A stretch of 64,000 nucleotides of DNA from Siphonodentalium dalli (taxonomy: Eukaryota > Mollusca > Scaphopoda > Gadilida > Siphonodentaliidae). Each line of letters begins with the position of its first letter. The first letter of the stretch is position 1. Positions 23,154 to 36,405 of the stretch are shown here, in pieces. The stretch covers positions 71,773,980 through 71,837,979 of the forward strand of contig CP136063.1 in the NCBI GenBank assembly GCA_032622095.1, given 5' to 3'. The notes under the pieces were generated by a model. It did not search any database. It had not been told where the DNA came from and worked only from the letters and a program-made list of their open reading frames with translations. Both the position numbers and the translations under genes were made by a program.

Positions 23154-25404
23154 AATTTTCTGAAATTTCGGACTATTTCGTCTATAAAAATACGATGAGC
23201 AACTGAAAATGTTTTTCAACATTCTGGAAGGGGTATATGTCCATGGTATATATGTTTAAAATTTCACGCATAAACTATGACAGATAACAAAGTTATAATT
23301 AGTTTAATAGGCCCACCATAAATCCCCTATAATAAACGCATGCCTCCGTAAGCACATGACTTTGCTGTGGATACTTTCGTTCCCAGCATGCATCATTCTC
23401 GCTATCTGTAAAATGTCTATGAACAATGGCTGCATGTGCCATGCACTCTTAGCTTTGATCCGCATTTAGAAGCATTCTGGTGTGGCGAATGAGAAACCTG
23501 CAGTAATTTATAAGCCGTAGTTCATTTTAATAATTTGAAGAATTACTTGTCTTAACGGAATTCTGAGGCGGTCCATTCATGTAACCAATATATTTTATAT
23601 TATGATTTATATTTATGACTAATAATACGATCTTGGTGGCGTTACCATTTCTGACTATGGTTTTCTTGTCTGAACTATCATGCGGTTTGGTGTAGTGATA
23701 GATACGAGTGAAAGATCTCGTGATCAAACATGATTATGTTTGTACCAAATTTTTGGTTTAAGGTTACGCATCTATAACCCGGTGCGATAAAATACTTCGT
23801 TTTGTACGACAATGTTTTAATGAAACTGAGAAACTGATGAATCAGTGACACAACAGTCAACATTTTCCTCGATCCATGTACTTGATTTTCCGGTACATAT
23901 CCAGAAATTTCCATGTCCGGTCAGCCAAAATATTGGCAACAGTATTTCTTCACGAAAAATCCAGTTCATTTGAAAGAACATCCGAAATATCATTGAACAA
24001 CTAAATTAAACACCACCGTCCTGCAACTGTCAACTTTATATATCAGCCAGTGCATCAGTTGCCATGCTTCTAGGAAAGCTAGTTGTCGTCGCTGAGTCTT
24101 ATATTCAAGTCTTTGAACTGTCTCATGTGTCAGAATATCTCAGTCACTTAAATTTCCACAAATCTTGTAACATTATATTCAGTGCATTTCTGGGCCAGTT
24201 CCTGTTGAACGTTCTCGATTTATTGGAACCAGCTGACACCAGCAAGATTGGAACAGTCCATAATTCACTAGAATATGTTTGAGATGGTGCTACATGCAAT
24301 AATTGTAGATACCAGATTTCATCGAACCAATGAAGGAATCTGTTCTTCAGTCACACTCGCGCACACATACCCTAGTACCGGTACTGGTACTTCGGTTATA
24401 ACACATCAACTTGAGAAGATTGTACCATCCGTATGTTGTGTCCAAAGTTTATTTTGCAGATACTCGGTCGAATCTAACCTGTGTAAGCTCAGTGTAGCTC
24501 CTGAAAGAAAGAATAATTTAATATATTAGTGACTCATTGCATCCTGATTATGATTGTTATTAGGGTTACATCTTACCTGCCTGCACTTTTTTCTAAGATT
24601 CTCGACTTTAATATCATATTATGGTATTGTACCAGAGTACATGTAACTTGGTTGTAAGAATAATACCCTACCAATTCAAAGACAACAGTCTTCCGAAATT
24701 ATACAACATTATTCTCACTGACCCAAACAATCATTACAATGCGAGGGATTTCAATGTCGCAGTTGGCCAGTTGGCTGGTTGTGTCAATCAGTGCACATGC
24801 ACGATGCGCTTCAAATGAGACATGATATTACGTAATTGAATTACCTGCTCATGGAAGATGGACTTATACACATTTGAGACCAATGTAGAATGGTTATTGG
24901 TTAATATTCAAGACGTTTGCATCTCAAAATTCAGGAAAATCTTTATTTCCGCGTTCCATTCGTGAATACTCAAGTACACGGCTTGATGGATGATATATTA
25001 AAAAATACGGATGTGGACGTGGATTAAATGTAGTTTAAAACGGATGTATTTAAATCGGATGTATTGTGATATAATAGACAGAAACTCACTTTTAGAACAA
25101 TTCCTATCCTTTTGATCAAATTATGTATACATTGGCATTTTTAACAATAATCACGCTAAGTATCTACTTATTATTTTGTTATTTCTTTCTTACTTAATGA
25201 TACTTGGCAACATATCGAGGTGCTCCCCACACACACGAGGGACTTCCTACTGGACATATCCACTGGAATAACTTTTTCATATCGTAATATTTATGTCCAA
25301 TCATTGTTGTTCAACGTCTAACATATATATGCATACATGTATCATCCCACCATCCGGAACGTGAATATATGGGTTCAGTCGCGGTGGTGAGTTAGACCTC
25401 GGAA
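23154..25404. other. iGluR intron, no supported exon
   Basis: The plus-strand frame 24064-24282 (72 codons, MLLGKLVVVAESYIQVFELS onward) is moderately protein-like but has no domain, no coding-quality splice borders and an opposite orientation to the host gene. I treat it as chance or repeat-derived. Confidence 0.35.
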
Positions 25405-25751
25405 CAGGGATGGCACCAGTATTCCACCGACGCAGGGGCTATACTATACGATCAACCTCGGTGGGGGGGGGGGGTGCTATTATACTGTAATGCTATATCT
25501 GGCTTACCATTGCACATTTCCCCGACGAGGAGAAGGTGACTAAGCTGTACACCACTTAGTGACACCCCTGTCATTGAACCAGACCGAACTCCTACGTATC
25601 TCGAACTGTCGAAGTGTTAGAAATATCTAACCTAATATTATGTCAATTTTTTTTTATCTTTTGTACTGTTTTCCAAATTTACAACTGTTGGAAACTTTTA
25701 CCAAATGTTGGGTAGGGTGAGACACCAACATCCCTTGTTGCCACGTCCCTG
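25405..25751. mobile_element. possible hAT-like relic related to 3085-4118
   Basis: Begins CAGGGATGGC and ends GCCACGTCCCTG, similar to the CAGGGAT(A/G)TGGC ends at 3085-4118. It contains the family words CTGTTGGAAAC and GGTGAGACACC and a G run near 25448-25460. No matching 8-bp target duplication was found, so it may be decayed or recombined. Confidence 0.5.
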
Positions 25752-25969
25752 GATATCATATGTGATGGTTGCTTTTGTAAGCTCAGGTGTCGCTAATAAG
25801 GTTTAAGCATTATAAACCAATAAACTAGGAGTGACTGTCAAATTTGAATATCGCATGTAATCATTGTGCCATACATCGGAACCAAAATGTACAGGGTAGG
25901 CGTATAGTCGAATGACTTAATACATGCATGGTATAAATAAGATGATAATGATGATGATAAATTGGATTA

Positions 25970-26978
25970 TCTATTATATATTTTTGAAAGATCTGTGTGT
26001 GTGTGTATCTGTATGTGTGTGTGTGTAATCGATGAACTCGAAAACGACCGACCCGATTTCGATGAAACTTGGTACGTGGGGATATTTTCGGCCGGGGGTT
26101 AACATAGGCCTATTGATTTACCCGTGCGACGTGACCTTGACCTTCAAAACTCATATCTCGGGATCCGCAGTGCTATCACGCCGGATTTAGCACAGCGATG
26201 CAGGGAGGATAACTCTATATTCATACGTCGACGAACGTAAGCGTTTTGCAGGCAATTGCGCATCGTGTATTTTTCCCAAAATTATAACATTTACAATATA
26301 TATTGTCAATTTGCAGGCTATTAAAAATCGTGCATCTATCCCAAAATATATCATTTATTACAATTTCTGATATATAAATTTGTTACAGCTAATATTCTTA
26401 GGTCTATTGTCGATAGATTTATTTTTTGTATATTCACACCTCGCATAGGCTCAGGCTGTTTACATTTACCCCGCGGGTCTGGAATCTCATCCAAGAATCC
26501 ATTTAGCTGAAATGATACTTCGTTGTTGCGAAATGGAATCTATCGGTGGCCCCAAACCGCCAATGCCAACAACATCGACATTGTTCAACTTTGACGGCGA
26601 GAAAATAATTAGTTAAAATTTACTACAAAATGCTAATTTATCTTTACGTTAACGAGCGTGTGTATATGAGGCGCGTTTATATACTTTAGTGGAAATCAAA
26701 TCGGGTAAAACTGGCGGATTTTTACGGACGAAATTTGATACATAGGGTATCTCGGTATCCACTGGGCCGATTTCCCGGTATCCGCTGGGCCAATTTCCAC
26801 CATTTTTGGGGTGTTGGTGTTGGTAAACTGCCAGACGGATTTTGACGAAATTTGATACTTAGTGGTAATTGTTTCCAGGGAGTGTTTTGGACGGGTCAAA
26901 TCGTGACCCCACCTGACCTTGACCTTCAAAATGGTCAATTCAATGTCAAAGCCCGGACGAAGTCGGGTCACCTTCTAG
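25970..26978 (+). mobile_element. Helitron-like element, tandem unit 1 (long)
   Basis: Starts TCTATTATATATTTTTGAAAG after an A at 25969 and ends at CTAG (26975-26978). The 3' end has a short bulged hairpin (CCCGGACGAAGTCGGG) 7 nt before CTAG. TC start, CTRR end, subterminal hairpin and A/T insertion site are the Helitron criteria. A GT microsatellite follows the 5' end. The interior carries GTGACCTTGACCTTCAA and a long segment shared with unit 4. No Rep/helicase ORF, so non-autonomous. Confidence 0.85.
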
Positions 26979-27601
26979 TCTATTATATATTTTGAAAGAT
27001 CTGTGTGTGTGTGTGTGTGTGTCTGTGTGTGTGTGTGTGTGTAATCGATGAACTCAAAACGACCGACCCGATTTCGATGAAACTTGGTACGTGGGGGTAT
27101 TTTCGGCCGGGGGTTAACATAGGCCTATTGATTTGCCCGTGCGACGTGACCTTGACCTTCAAATCGGGTCATTTCAAGGTCAAACTCCCGAATATCACGG
27201 GATTTCGATGAAACTTGGTATGTGGGGATACTTTCTTATGGCGAGTCTCATAATCATATTCATTTGCCCGTGCGACGTGACCTTGACCTTAACATCGGGT
27301 AACTTCAAGGTCAAATCGCCAATTTTGATGGGATTTCGACGAAATTTGATACGTGGGGTTAGTTTTGTCCACTGATTGTTTTGGACGGGTCCAATCGTGA
27401 CCCCGACCAGACATTGACCTTCAAAATGATCAATTCAAGGTCAAATCGGGTAAAACCGGATGGATTTCGACTGGCACGTTTGTCGGGTACTTTTGTCCGG
27501 GCAGTGTTTTTGGACTGGTCAAATCGTGACCCCACTTGACCTTGACCTTCAAAGTGGACAATTCAAGGTCAAAGCCCGGACGAAGTCGGGTCACCTTCTA
27601 G
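26979..27601 (+). mobile_element. Helitron-like element, tandem unit 2 (short)
   Basis: Starts TCTATTATATATTTTGAAAG directly after the CTAG of unit 1 and ends at CTAG (27598-27601). It has the same 5' module as unit 1 (GATGAACTC, CGACCGACCCGATTTCGATG) and then several degenerate ~130-bp modules, each with GATTTCGA(T/C)GAAA(C/T)TTG, followed by TGACCTTGACCTT and TTCAAGGTCAAA. It lacks the long interior of units 1 and 4. The Cys-Val repeat open frames here are translations of the GT run. Confidence 0.85.
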
Positions 27602-27625
27602 TCTATTATATATTTTGGAAGATCT

Positions 27626-27664
<39 letters not shown>

Positions 27665-28403
27665 CGCGATGGACTCGAACACGGCTGGACCGATTTCGAC
27701 CAAACTTGGTATGGACACGTAATTCGACCCGGGAACGAACATGGGCCTATTGATTTTCAGATCCGAGGTAAACTTTTCACGTGCCGAGGTCAAATCTGTT
27801 TTTACGCTGTGTTACGGGACTTTCATTTGAGTTCGGTGCTTACAAATCGATTCGAAAAAGCGCGAATAATAAAATGCCAGTCATAATAATGACACTGTGA
27901 GAATCTTTCGTGTTTGCTCTTTCCAACGATATATAATGCGTATGTATTCGTTTTAGTTGTCTGCCTCAATTATCAAGAAGAAGTGCTACTATCTTCCATC
28001 GGGATAAAAACAATGCATAACTTCTATGACGTCGTTAGAGGTCATAACGTTAGATAACGTTAACGCTTAACCGGCCGATGCATTTGACTGTTTTAGACAT
28101 CTTGGCGATATCTCGGACACCGATGGTAATTTATCTTTACGTTGAAACTTGATAATTAATGAGCGTGTGTATATGAGGCGCGTTTATATACTTGAGTGGA
28201 AATCAAATCGGGTTAAACTGGCGGATTTTTACGGACGAAATTTGATGCATAGGGTATCTCGGTATCCGCTGGGCCGATTTCCCGGTATCCGCTGGGCCGA
28301 TTTCCACCATTTTTGGGGTGTTGGTGTTTGACCCCACCTGACATTAACCTTCAAAATGGTAAATTCAAGGTCAAAGCCCGGACGAAGTCGGGTCACCTTC
28401 TAG
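27602..28403 (+). mobile_element. Helitron-like element, tandem unit 3 (intermediate)
   Basis: Starts TCTATTATATATTTTGGAAG and ends CTAG (28400-28403) after the same hairpin. The 5' module differs from units 1-2 (TTCGCGATGGACTCGAACACGGCTGGACCG) and matches unit 4. About 300 bp of its 3' part (from about 28116) match units 1 and 4. Confidence 0.85.
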
Positions 28404-29407
28404 TCTATTATATATTTTGGAAGATCTGTGTGTGTGTGTGTGTGTGTGTTCGCGATGGACTCGAACACGGCTGGACCGATTTCGACCAAACTTGGTACGG
28501 ACACGTAATTCGACCCGGGAACGAACATGGGCCCGTCCATTTGTCCGTGCGGCGTCACCTTCACCTTCAAAACTCATATCTCGGGATCCGCAGTGCTAAC
28601 ACGCAGGAATTTAGCACTGCGATGCAGGGAGGATAACTCTATATTCATACGTTGACGAACGTAAGCAATGTGCAGGCAATTACGCATCGTGTATTTTCCC
28701 CAAAATTATAACATTTACAATATATATTGTCAATTTGCAGGCTATTAAGAATCGTGTATCTGTCCCAAAATAAATCATTTACAATTTCTGATATATAAAT
28801 TTTGTTACAGCTGATATTCTTAGGTCTATTGTCGATAGATTTATTTTTCGTATATTTACACCACTCTAAGGCTCAAGTTGTTTACATTTACCCGGCGGGT
28901 CTGGAATCTCATCCAAGAATCCATTTAGCTGAAATGCTATTTCGCTGTTGGAATCTACCGGTGGCCCCAAACCATCAATGCCAACAACATCGACATTGTT
29001 CAACTTTGACGGCGAGAAAATAATTATTTAAAATTTACTACACAATGCTAATTTATCTTTACGTTGAAGCTTGATAATTAACGAGCGTGTGTATATGAGG
29101 CGCATTTATATACTTTAGTGGAAATCAAATCGGGTAAAACTGGCGGATTTTTACGGACGAAATTTGATACATAGGGTATCTCGGTATCCGCTGGGCCGAT
29201 TTCCCGGTATCCGCTGGGCCAATTTCCACCATTTTTGGGGTGTTGGTGTTGGTAAACTGCCAGACGGATTTTGACGAAATTTGATACTTAGTGGTAATTG
29301 TTTCCAAGGAGTGTTTTGGACGGGTCAAATCGTGACCCCACCTGACCTTGACCTTCAAAATGGTCAATTCAATGTCAAAGCCCGGACGAAGTCGGGTCAC
29401 CTTCTAG
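28404..29407 (+). mobile_element. Helitron-like element, tandem unit 4 (long)
   Basis: Starts TCTATTATATATTTTGGAAG and ends CTAG (29404-29407), followed by T at 29408. Its 5' module is like unit 3 and its interior (from AAAACTCATATCTCGGGATCCG) is nearly the same as unit 1. The mosaic of 5' and interior types points to recombination or rolling-circle template switching among units. Confidence 0.85.
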
Positions 29408-30877
29408 TATATATATAATACCGGTACTCACCACGCAAAGTTAGTGTTGTCTCATAGCTGCGTGCTGGAGTGATCCATTTTAGCTCGATCCGTCAGCATG
29501 TAGATACATTCAGAGCTATATAGAATTTCCCGCAGTGAAGATCATATGTGATGGAATTTCATTCTAACAGCGCGCCGGTATAATATTCTACCGGTATGTA
29601 ATTGATACCGTAAACAGGATATGTCAATCCAATTTAACTTCGGCATTCGTGTGCAGATATAGTCGCAATCCAGACCACATGTTGATTAGGAGTGACGGCT
29701 TTGTCCGTGAAATCACTGCTTGGAGCTGTAAACTGAAATCTTTGTGATACCATGTGATTTTCTACAGCTCGGAACTGTAAATTGGGGTTCAGTTTACAGC
29801 TCGCTGTATGAATATATGCAGGGATATCCAAATTAGGGTGAAGAAAGAGGGCAATGCAGCCAAAGACAGCTCAGTCGCTGATTGGTCGAACATATCTGCT
29901 GATAATTATTTGATTAACAGCTGTGGAGAGATAAATTGTTATGTAATCAGTTCAATGGGTGGAGGAAAGAGGAAATAACAACTTTATAAAAATTGATTAT
30001 TTCTTTTCTGTGTTTTTATTAATAAAAGCTAAAAATGAGGGGTTGAGGGGAGGACCAATCGGTTCTTTCGAGAATCCCGGGGTTTGTCCCCCAAAACTAC
30101 TACTTCGCGTGTTAACTGAGGGGCATATGATGTCTTGGCTTCAGGAGCGTTCCTGGACTTCGTCCGCTTGGCGATCGAATTACTGACTTCAGCGGAACAA
30201 TGGAATCGTCTGTAATCCAAGCTGACGTCAGACACATACTTCGCTCACTCAACGTGGATCCCTGCCTGGCCTGAAATTTACACGACCAGGCATCCACGAT
30301 GAACTGTTTCTTATATACCGGGATACAACAACACTGTCCTTACCAGGACCCTCTGTTGGCCTAAACCCGGTTGGTATATCCTACCATCGACCGGCCACCA
30401 TCTGGTATGGGGGCCTCGACGAGAAGAAGCGGAAGTGGAATAAAAAGACGCCACTTCGAAGGAAAAGGGACTCGCTTAACTAACTTCCCAACATTTATTT
30501 GAAAACACAGAACAATATTCAAATTCCCGTCCTCTTTACCCTGTAGCTGTCTGTATTGACACTCGGGGTAACATTTCTAGAGGAAAGGATTTTTTATATG
30601 GCTTGTTATCCAATCCTCATTTGAACTATTTGTTTTTCTATATGTTTAATTGTCAATGTGATGATCTGTTCTTTCGTTCAAATAAAATATTGTTTACACC
30701 AACATTATACAGAGGGTGAATAATAGGGATCGCACCAAACGTTGTTACAACTTACCGGACGCCAGTCTCCCAAAAATGGAATGTGTTTACGAAACGTAAT
30801 GGAATACCGGACTGTATGCAACGCGAACAAAGAAACGGTAATGCATACGTCGCACAATAACTAAACATTTAACATAC
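29408..30877. other. iGluR intron, no supported exon
   Basis: A GC-richer patch at about 30030-30480 has protein-like short frames on both strands (for example plus 30300-30480, GLDEKKRKWNKKTPLRRKRD) and an AATAAA at about 30681. This could be the 3' end of a mobile element, but no family motif was recognised. Confidence 0.35.
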
Positions 30878-31134
30878 TTTTTATTAAATAGTTCCTTGAA
30901 TGCCGCGTCTTTGGGTAAGACGAATCCAATCCCAGCCGTGTTAAAAGTTTCTTCTGCCACAGCGAAATGACCACAATGTTTAGGAGATGAGGCTGTCATT
31001 TCCATCCACGTTATCCAACGTAAAAGGGCGTAGTTTCCAGAATAGACATAGTCTATTGCATCCGCTGTATCAACCACGCGCGGCCCATCTCTCATCGCCT
31101 GCCAGATTTTACTATAATATGGATCCGTTGACTC
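30878..31134 (-). CDS. iGluR exon: ligand-binding lobe S2
   Basis: Acceptor TTTCAG (31140-31135), then GAG in phase 0, and donor GTATGTT (from 30877) after two bases of a split codon. The 257 bases encode ESTDPYYSKIWQAMRD, which aligns with the S2 segment after M3 (compare ..SK(I)..(Y/F).KMW..M.. of kainate receptors), then YSGNYALLRWITWMEM and NTAGIGFVLPKDAAF, the G-(I/V)-G-x-P-x-x-(S/A)-(P/A) turn of S2. The Cys in PKHC matches the first Cys of the S2 disulfide. At the position of the conserved acidic residue (YA-L-L/M-E-S in AMPA and kainate receptors, Asp in NMDA) this protein has Trp, preceded by Arg. That residue normally binds the agonist amino group, so ligand specificity is likely altered. 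Confidence 0.93.
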
Positions 31135-33474: not shown

Positions 33475-35432
33475 CAGGTTGTAACTAGCAATCTGAGCTT
33501 GACATTGGGTTTAATTTTGAACGTGCACGAAACATCGGGGGTATAAGCGCACGTGAAACATCGGGGTATATGAATGACACTTGTGCCGATTTTTCCCTCA
33601 CCTGACGCCGACTCCATAGATCGGCTGCTGAATTATTCTTATTGATGTGAATTAATGTGAGAACCTATGAAAACAACACTTAAATTGAGTCCGCATGGAT
33701 ATCGATCTGCATGGGGACATAATGGTTATGTCCGGCAACATGGAGATTTAATACATATGGGTTCAAAATCGATATCCAGGTATTAAATCGCCATGTACCC
33801 CCGACGTTGCCGAAGATAACTAATAACATCTCTGAATATGACCGACCATTCAATCTATGTTCTCCAAAATCATCCCATTACTTTTTGTAAACCAGCGATG
33901 TCGTAGTTGCCGAATCGTATAGATATCACTATATAGCTATCGTATAGCTAGCTGAGCAACACATTCGAACAATGTTCAGTTGTATATCCGCGACACTTTA
34001 AACCAGTTAGCCCTGTAATGAAGGGATCAAAATTGTGACATAGTTTATGGCCGTGTTGTAGATTTATTTACGTTGTTTCATTGGTTCGGCGACTGTCTCA
34101 GAGGACAGCGAATTGATTTGTCGGAAGAGATACATTATTTTTGAAGGCAGTAAAGATGCATAATGAAAGTCGCGGAGAAATGAATTGCTACGAAATCCAT
34201 ATTTGTGGAACAAGAAAGTATATATTTTCAGGGAGAGAAATAGTTGGAGTGGGTATTATTGGGGGATACGGCGCTGTGGTCGTTGGGGCATATCTATAGT
34301 ATACAATGTGCTCCAACGACAAGAGCGCCTTATCCCTAAATAACACACACCCACTACATTCACTTCTTATATCATTCGCCGATCTAGCCATTCTGCATCG
34401 CTTGCATGATCTGTTCCATCGAATGGTTGTTATGGTGTATTTTGTTGCCCATATATTTTGCTTTTCCTTTGTTGTCGTTCACTCGCTTTCGGGATATGTT
34501 TCTCTACTAATAATTAGTTGAGGTTTAACGAACGGCGAGTTTCTCTAGCAATAATTTGTTTAAGTTTAACAGTTGGTGAGTTTCCCAGCAAATAGACGTA
34601 TTAATCGGTAATATGCATACGGTCAATCGCGAGATTGAAAGAGACCGGCAGATGTGGTTGTAAACAAACGTCTAAATGTTCAAAAGCGATCGGTTCTGAT
34701 TCAGTAACCACACCCCTATAAACCAACTAAATCGGGACCAAATGTAAATATTGAATACTGGCGGTTAACAAACGAAAGTATGCCATATAAGTGACTGACT
34801 GATGTATATCCCAACAGAATACGCACGAAAACGGCATTCAAACGGGCTTTTCAAAATTTAAAAAACGCCAAGCTGGTCTTTTTAGTCGGCTCTGGTGTGT
34901 ACCAAGTGTGGTTTGATAGATGGAGTTATTTCCCCCGCTTGTTAAATGTTCGCCGCGTCAATTTGATCTCACACCAACGTTGTAAAACACGTTTAAATGG
35001 ATAGTCTGCTGATTTAACAAGGTAACGAGTGTTCCTATCACACTCGAAAGTCGAAATATACGCGATAATGCCGTTTACCCGACCAAAATCGGTGTAGTAA
35101 GTCAGAAATTCAGCACTACCACAGGTTGGGTGCCACCCATTGTCTCCCCTTTCTATCTTATATTTTTAAAATATTTGTTCTACATGTTCCCTGTGATTTC
35201 ACTGTGTGCTAGTTGCGTGTCCCATGATATATCTGGTAAATTAGAGTCACGCCAATAGAACAAATCAATCAGTTTATCGTTGTTTTCTTTACTTGATTAC
35301 ATGCGGGCCACGATAAATGGTGGCCGTTGACATCATAAACCGATTCAAACTCGATATAAAATGGTCTCGATATATTTTAGTTGAGTTTCAGTTATAAATA
35401 ATAGCTGACTCTTATTGTTCTATTGTATATAC
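33475..35432. other. iGluR intron, no exon; weak foldback near 34248-34355
   Basis: An imperfect inverted repeat pairs GTGGGT, GGGGGATA(C)GGCGCT and GTCGTTGG(G)GCA with their complements across about 34249-34355. A second weak one surrounds 33690-33830. No coding evidence. Confidence 0.4.
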
Positions 35433-36405
35433 GTACTAAATACGAACGTATAGCACACAGTGTGACATTTTACGTCCGTACTCAATACGGACGTATAGCA
35501 CACAGTGTGACATTTTACGTCCGTACTCAATACGGACGTATAGCACAGTGTGACATTTTACGTCCGTACTCAATACGAACGTATAACAGACAGTGTGACA
35601 TTTTACGTCCGTACCCAATACGAACGTATAGCACACAGTGTGACATTTTACGTCCGTACTCAATACGAACGTATAGCACACAATGTGACATTTTACGCCC
35701 GTACTCAATACGGACGTATAGCACACATTGTGACATTTTACGTCCGTACTCAATACGAACGTATAGCAGACAGTGTGACATTTTACGTCCGTACTCAATA
35801 CGAACGTATAGCACACAGTGTGACATTTTACGTCCGTACTCAATACGAACGTATAGCACACAATGTGACATTTTACGTCCGTACTCAATATGGACGTATA
35901 GCAGACAGTGTGACATTTTACGTCCGTAGTCAATACGAACGTATAGCACACAGTGTGACATTTTACGTCCGTACCCAATACGGACGTATAGCACACAGTG
36001 TGACATTTTACGTCCGTACTCAATACGAACGTATAGCAGACAGTGTGACATTTTACGTCCGTACTCAATATGGACGTATAGCAGACAGTGTGACATTTTA
36101 CGTCCGTACTCAATATGGACGTATAGCAGACAGTGTGACATTTTACGTCCGTACTCAATATGGACGTATAGCAGACAGTGTGACATTTTACGTCCGTACT
36201 CAATATGGACGTATAGCAGACAGTGTGACATTTTACGTCCGTAGTCAATACGAACGTATAGCACACAATGTGACATTTTACGTCCGTACTCAATACGAAC
36301 GTATAGCACACAGTGTGACATTTTACGTCCGTACTCAATACGAACGTATAGCACACAATGTGACATTTTACGTCCGTACTCAATACGGACGTCTAGCAGC
36401 CAAGA
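35433..36405. repeat. 45-bp minisatellite, about 22 units
   Basis: Unit starts lie at 35433, 35478, 35523, then every 45 bp from 35566 to 36376; the third unit is 43 bp because of a 2-bp deletion. The core is GTACTCAATACGAACGTATA followed by GCACACAGTGTGACATTTTACGTCC. Units differ at fixed positions (CGAAC, CGGAC or TGGAC; CACAG, GACAG or CACAATG; GTACT, GTACC or GTAGT). Units with CGGAC contain a perfect dyad (ACGTCCGTA, CTCAA, TACGGACGT). Because 45 is divisible by 3, long open frames exist on both strands (about 168-315 codons). They are repeat translations without domains, not genes. Confidence 0.97.

Follow-up and report, generated by a model that had tools for sequence, protein, structure and literature searches.

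Canonical Helitrons insert between A and T without duplicating the target, and the bat element Helraiser does so while also forming circles in which its two ends are joined and carrying a hairpin terminator that can be bypassed (available portions of PMC4778049 and PMC5876387). Exact junctions are described for wheat Helitron circles in the excerpted text of PMC13286980. Tandem head-to-tail Helitron arrays are cited from plants, where they lie in centromeres, and from bats (PMC5876387, PMC5148889, both in part). As far as the available sections describe them, Metarhizium acridum carries three Helitrons in tandem, a triplet for which the same two explanations considered here were given (PMC5148889), and Fusarium FoHeli4 is inserted 2 bp upstream of the 5' end of another copy. 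Here we describe four non-autonomous Helitrons joined head to tail in a 64,000-nucleotide stretch, called the window, of the scaphopod Siphonodentalium dalli (GenBank assembly GCA_032622095.1, contig CP136063.1, positions 71,773,980 to 71,837,979, forward strand), and thousands of exact joins of the same family elsewhere in the genome.

Like Helraiser/Helibat1, the canonical animal Helitron of bats, the elements of S. dalli have TC and CTAG ends, a 3' hairpin, insertion between A and T and a RepHel (Rep/helicase) protein. The Helraiser circles join one element to itself, whereas the joins here are genomic, number in the thousands and often connect different elements or families. The plant centromere cases are cited, in the portions available, as truncated Helitrons; here both ends are present, partners are mixed, the arrays are dispersed and autonomous copies are included. 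The Metarhizium and Fusarium examples are single cases of the Helitron2 type, whereas canonical Helitrons and thousands of cases are at hand here, which allows the possible readings to be weighed. We found no report of mixed-family, exact, one-way Helitron joining on such a scale in searches of the open-licence literature, and the available portions of PMC4683698 and PMC8268682 held nothing further on tandem joining. Tandem Helitrons are already known; the scale and the mixed partners look new.

The units of the window array and their borders, all on the forward strand, are as follows.

25969, forward: host A of the A/T target, 5' border of the array (direct reading)
25970-26978, forward: unit 1, non-autonomous Helitron, 1009 bp, 5' type X (GAAAG), subfamily 1 interior (direct reading and unit comparison)
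26952-26978, forward: 3' end of unit 1 (hairpin and CTAG), joined exactly to the TC of unit 2 (3'-end pattern search)
26979-27601, forward: unit 2, non-autonomous Helitron, 623 bp, 5' type X, subfamily 12, with 131-bp internal repeats (direct reading and unit comparison)
27575-27601, forward: 3' end of unit 2, joined exactly to the TC of unit 3 (3'-end pattern search)
27602-28403, forward: unit 3, non-autonomous Helitron, 802 bp, 5' type Y (GGAAG), subfamily 8 (direct reading and unit comparison)
28377-28403, forward: 3' end of unit 3, joined exactly to the TC of unit 4 (3'-end pattern search)
28404-29407, forward: unit 4, non-autonomous Helitron, 1004 bp, 5' type Y, subfamily 1 (direct reading and unit comparison)
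29381-29407, forward: 3' end of unit 4, followed by host T (direct reading and 3'-end pattern search)
29408, forward: host T of the A/T target (direct reading)

Direct reading revealed that all four units start with TCTATTATATATT and end with CCCGGACGAAGTCGGG-TCACCTT-CTAG. The sequence-only reading had described four Helitron-like units with exact CTAG/TC junctions between an outer A and T, and this was borne out. The units were also mosaics as it had claimed: the 5' types run GAAAG, GAAAG, GGAAG, GGAAG, and the interior is common to units 1 and 4 and separate in units 2 and 3. The 27-base 3' end, searched with up to 3 mismatches, gave 4 matches in the window, all of them unit 3' ends, and none in 100 shuffles. 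At the same tolerance, the 5'-end pattern matched three of the four units and missed unit 1, which has one extra T. The terminal hairpin is conserved and weak when folded as DNA (-2.7 kcal/mol, z 0.26). At window positions 26899-26978, 27522-27601 and 29328-29407, the GGGTCAC beside this hairpin can pair with an upstream GTGACCC, giving a larger alternative fold (-10.6 to -13.3 kcal/mol) in competition with the short terminal hairpin. An Rfam scan of window positions 24000-31000 gave no match at the gathering score.

The whole array and its flanks were present again, inverted, about 1 Mb away at C3:72.82 Mb (C3:72822150-72826450), with 98.5% identity over a 4,312-column alignment containing 28 mismatches and 10 gap openings. 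It is a segmental duplicate whose flanks match those of the window array. Since block and flanks recur there, an assembly error is an unlikely source of the window array.

We searched the genome (2.23 Gb in nine contigs; the window starts at C3:71773980) for the ends of this family, which we call X/Y. The X/Y 3' end, written with N7, had 13,740 exact copies, and its reversed control had none. Borders were counted at filled sites in the window and the fetched loci (numbered with L), excluding the segmental duplicate. An unjoined X/Y 5' end was preceded by A in 34 of 38 cases (G in 3, T in 1), and an outer 3' border, where no X/Y 5' end came next, was followed by T in all 55 cases. Of the 100 unjoined X/Y 5' ends listed first genome-wide, by a pattern that excludes a preceding G, 94 were preceded by A, 5 by T and 1 by C. 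The exact ends genome-wide and these border bases supported the Helitron identity and A/T target named in the sequence-only reading, and the true ends of the family coincide with the TC and CTAG that it had named. The TC start, hairpin-CTAG end, A/T insertion and a RepHel partner with the same ends support assignment to the canonical Helitrons.

Helentrons and HINEs have termini other than TC...CTAG and a target other than A/T. A Helentron or HINE identity was rejected for the present family, whose ends and target are canonical. DINE-1 and other Helentron-type repeats of flies and oysters are, according to the accounts available in part, abundant, non-autonomous and associated with tandem repeats, as the units here are; they belong to the Helentron branch, whereas the ends here are TC and CTAG and the target A/T.

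Exact CTAG/TC junctions of the X/Y family numbered 3,973 genome-wide against 0 in the control, and 3,497 exact junctions were counted with the full 30-base pattern. A further 2,947 X/Y 5' ends directly followed the 3' end of another family, Z (5' end TCTCATATATATTTTGAAGACC; 3' end ...CGGCTAG or ...CTGCTAG), and 5,907 were unjoined. Together these three classes make 12,351 exact X/Y 5' ends, of which 6,444 (52%) had another Helitron joined to them; this total does not cover 5' ends preceded by G or by other 3' ends, and the pattern for Z joins is slightly shorter than the other two and counts slightly more. Random A/T insertion would be expected to give less than one exact join (0.27-0.54, a rough estimate using the AT frequency of 0.105 in the window). 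A genome search for single copies and other arrays, proposed by the sequence-only reading, recovered both solos and thousands of exact junctions.

We favour, at somewhat better than even confidence, an origin of these stacks in successive insertions at the A^TC cut made by Rep in resident copies, with unequal recombination coming afterwards. Rep would nick a resident 5' end at its A^TC by the chemistry that also cuts an A/T target. An incoming copy would take this nick as its target: its CTAG would connect with the TC of the resident, and its TC with the host A. With every insertion A/TC would be restored at the outer 5' end, and the stack could regrow in the 5' direction. If Rep-bound resident ends serve as targets, joins should be exact, one-way, tolerant of the incoming element and open to renewal at the outer 5' end; all of these properties but the last match the counts, and the last we infer. 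It is an evenly balanced proposition that the resident 5' end is a preferred target, the Rep cut at A^TC doubling as the target cut, with same and different families stacking one way and about half of the exact X/Y 5' ends lying in stacks. Unequal homologous recombination between units would then alter unit number, make hybrids and perhaps make some arrays uniform, and segmental duplication would copy whole arrays, as seen for that in the window.

The spacing and orientation of the joins bear on a mere insertion hot spot, in which AT-rich DNA would draw Helitrons and some would land at a 5' end by chance. This explanation is very improbable, even though the flanks are rich in (TA)n and 333 X/Y pairs lay 1-30 bases apart genome-wide: the 3,497 pairs at gap 0 outnumber all 30 other gaps together more than tenfold. 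Landings within the first 11 bases of a resident 5' end numbered 58, and the A/T sites inside the 5' end were almost unused, with 2 of the 58 at a true internal A/T. Since AT is its own reverse complement, a hot spot would also give head-to-head pairs equally often, and none in that orientation appeared in the portion covered. No exact head-to-head pair was seen among the first 100 unjoined 5' ends listed (C1 to 48.9 Mb, coordinates compared by eye), which included one divergent pair a few bases apart and no overlapping opposite pair; the same stretch of C1 held 36 listed head-to-tail junctions. There was likewise no head-to-head join in 327,874 bases of the window and fetched loci, most of them chosen for head-to-tail joins. 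From these arrangements, joining looks one-way and head-to-tail.

Spaced pairs favoured a 12-base spacer, mostly (TA)6, with about 25 of 100 listed pairs by hand tally and about 10 or fewer for each other length. At 45 of the 58 landings near a resident 5' end, CTAG was followed by TATTATATATTTTG, the downstream unit lacking only its TC. This form was found on all or nearly all nine contigs and also at L081, and may represent copies of one event or a recurrent imprecise join.

We further examined the autonomous partner. A genome search with PF14214 gave at least 151 matches (150 of 457 candidates scored). An X/Y 3' end lay about 410-430 bp past the end of the reading frame in 5 of the 20 Rep loci with downstream DNA fetched (L006-L010); that of L008 had one hairpin substitution, and that of L009 had lost the tip after TCACC. 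The 5' end of the autonomous element, TCTATTATATATTTTGAAAGATCTGTG, was reached at two of three loci extended upstream. In the copy at C1:243.09 Mb, the central reading frame was open over 916 codons with Helitron_like_N and PIF1 domains, and its protein matched Helraiser (PDB 7lcc) over residues 4-912 with an E value of 1.4e-187. The autonomous element was joined exactly to non-autonomous units in four of the five loci examined, with the non-autonomous unit upstream at C2:35.76 Mb and C4:39.63 Mb and downstream at C6:36.91 Mb and C1:243.09 Mb; the 3' side of the copy at C1:114.64 Mb was not joined to the X/Y family. The search for a Rep/helicase partner suggested by the sequence-only reading yielded a RepHel element with the same ends, itself in arrays, which would serve the window units.

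Family Z also stands alone as a solo element, with 7,806 unjoined 5' ends genome-wide (among those listed, 3 were not after A) and 3,886 3' ends of the type ...CGGCTAG followed by a T whose next base is not C. Z 5' ends followed an X/Y 3' end at 273 places genome-wide and a Z-type 3' end in 2 of 8 cases in the fetched loci. Among the 20 places selected as isolated, three (L046, L055 and L059) were joined upstream to a Z 3' end, as were units in the array loci L025, L029, L032 and L041. At L016, a Rep-bearing element with a Z-like 3' end was joined to an X/Y unit. A dense one-strand cluster of X/Y-to-Z junctions at C2:103.714-103.804 Mb is likely a macro-array. A third Helitron family, with the hairpin CCCGTCA..TGACGGG before CTAG, was joined exactly to TCTATATATA twice in L005 (about 1249 and 2979).

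Units were sampled from 20 array loci taken from listed junctions, 20 places taken as isolated 3' ends, the window, L007, L010 and L016, and were compared all-against-all by global identity; L048, L053, L056, L061 and L063 gave no complete unit, and L070, the segmental duplicate, was left out of the subfamily, pair and dimer tables. Median identity was 0.75 in 101 same-locus pairs and 0.38 in 3,727 different-locus pairs. In the window, unit 1 had 0.912 identity to unit 4 and 0.913 to a solo. The closest sampled relatives of units 2, 3 and 4 lay at other loci: 94.6% (L029.3), 94.4% (L059.1, itself joined to a Z 3' end) and 93.6% (the solo L060.1), respectively, whereas these three units were only 0.135-0.403 identical to each other over their full length. 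Because units 2-4 are closest to sampled units elsewhere, the window array is not a concatemer of one template.

The sequence-only reading had expected such tandems from rolling-circle replication running past the 3' end, an origin that does not fit here given these identities. Such an origin is unlikely in general too, whether a single element was copied beyond its 3' end or went several times round a circle before a concatemer of identical units was inserted. Some arrays are near-uniform, such as L037 with three 876-bp units 97.8-99.1% alike, and the tandem Helitrons of plants and bats are cited, in the available part of PMC5876387, as support for rolling-circle transposition. Against this, the window units belong to three subfamilies, which refutes a concatemer as the sole source of the window array, and only 6 of 43 adjacent pairs were >95% identical (20 position-chosen array loci and the window; pairs with a spacer left out). 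By comparison, 16 of the 43 were <50% identical. Uniform runs can also arise by unequal recombination, as at L025. There, a 1029-bp hybrid unit matched a neighbour at 100% identity over positions 1-821 and the first unit, again at 100%, over 820-1029, while host DNA and a Z element lie within the repeated block; this hybrid is, from its structure, the apparent and expected product of unequal recombination between non-identical units. L026 and L027, 10 kb apart, share 543 bp at 99.3%, mostly 5' flank, and the units read there differ. The sequence-only reading had offered two alternatives, repeated end-to-end insertion or template switching. The former fits better, and the latter, though conceivable, is not needed because unequal recombination can make mosaic units.

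The 701-bp stretch of units 2 and 3 was co-linear over at least 680 bases at no fewer than 18 other places (40 of 2,805 candidates scored). Such recurrence is what composite transposons would give, in which the upstream terminator is skipped, several units move together and most junctions descend from a few founder joins; end bypass is shown for Helraiser in the available text of PMC4778049, and L071-L074 are alike in both halves of the dimer. However, the best of the 18 places was the segmental duplicate of the whole array with the same flanks, and the halves elsewhere were not clearly linked. In the other 17 places and the window (18 rows), divergence of one half was not significantly correlated with that of the other (Mantel r 0.19, p 0.12). 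With L077, L083 and L086 removed, in which unit 2 was most divergent, grouping the 15 remaining dimers by unit 3 gave 0.0309 within and 0.0312 between groups (p 0.45), with no shared descent of the halves. Subfamilies 8 and 12 are moreover abundant, with 41 and 23 units respectively among the 119 of a sample in which the unit 2-unit 3 dimer was enriched, and both are frequent among the position-chosen loci too; such pairs should recur by independent joining; both orders, 12-8 and 8-12, were present among loci. Composite transposition of the dimer was therefore rejected as its history, and composite transposons are kept only as a rival, a decidedly doubtful one and slightly more so than the concatemer. 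By these comparisons, the unit 2-unit 3 joins seem mostly independent, and some copying of whole dimers is possible.

Elements may instead have been joined before insertion, in the course of rolling-circle transposition, the 3' end of one attacking the Rep-bound 5' end of another rather than its own and a mixed multimer, linear or circular, being inserted once between A and T. Junctions that are exact, one-way and mixed would result in this case too; joined-end Helitron circles are known (PMC5876387, PMC4778049, in part), and arrays of any unit number almost always have A and T at their outer borders. On the other hand, two elements would be needed in one complex thousands of times, and multimers copied onward should have halves with a common history, of which there was no sign without the three divergent rows. 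We regard joining before insertion as possible and the less probable account, yet a serious rival because the age order predicted by stacking, with the upstream unit younger, was not shown: it held in 8 of 14 position-chosen mixed pairs (p 0.15).

Several further observations, like this age order, weigh against stacking by repeated insertion. Among all dated adjacent pairs, the order held in 20 of 39 (p 0.20); with the loci selected by the unit 2-unit 3 dimer added, it held in 15 of 25 mixed pairs (p 0.045). Neighbours of the same subfamily made up 14 of the 43 adjacent pairs against 8.8 expected (p 0.02), an excess that favours the concatemer. The halves of all 18 dimer rows were weakly linked (p 0.044), and two tight clusters, L071-L074 and L079/L081/L082, were close in both halves, which favours joining before insertion. 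The stacking model leaves unexplained the 45 joins without TC and the asymmetry between 2,947 Z-to-X/Y and 273 X/Y-to-Z joins. It would make Z the later arrival at the Z-to-X/Y joins, and Z copies did not look younger: their best identity was 94.8% (12 segments) against 96.3% for X/Y (5-95% range 93.8-98.3, subsampled to 11 loci).

The window array is not satellite DNA in the sense of a long homogeneous monomer array, as four heterogeneous units stand between the host A and T. Elsewhere in the window, positions 35432-36398 hold a satellite-like array with a period of 45 bp, 21.5 copies and 94% matches. Long X/Y arrays at C1:93420120-93426087 and C1:63517958-63534492, whose steps measure about 740/746 bp and about 3.1 kb (4.2 kb in one case), are satellite-like expansions.

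Target choice and the coupling of excision to insertion are open questions in Helitron biology on which these joins bear. The thousands of exact joins, many of them between different elements, are natural products of strand transfer. They suggest that the donor nick and the target nick are interchangeable, a claim open to testing with the Helraiser and wheat assays already available. In addition, the arrays show dispersed transposons seeding satellite-like repeats through unequal recombination.

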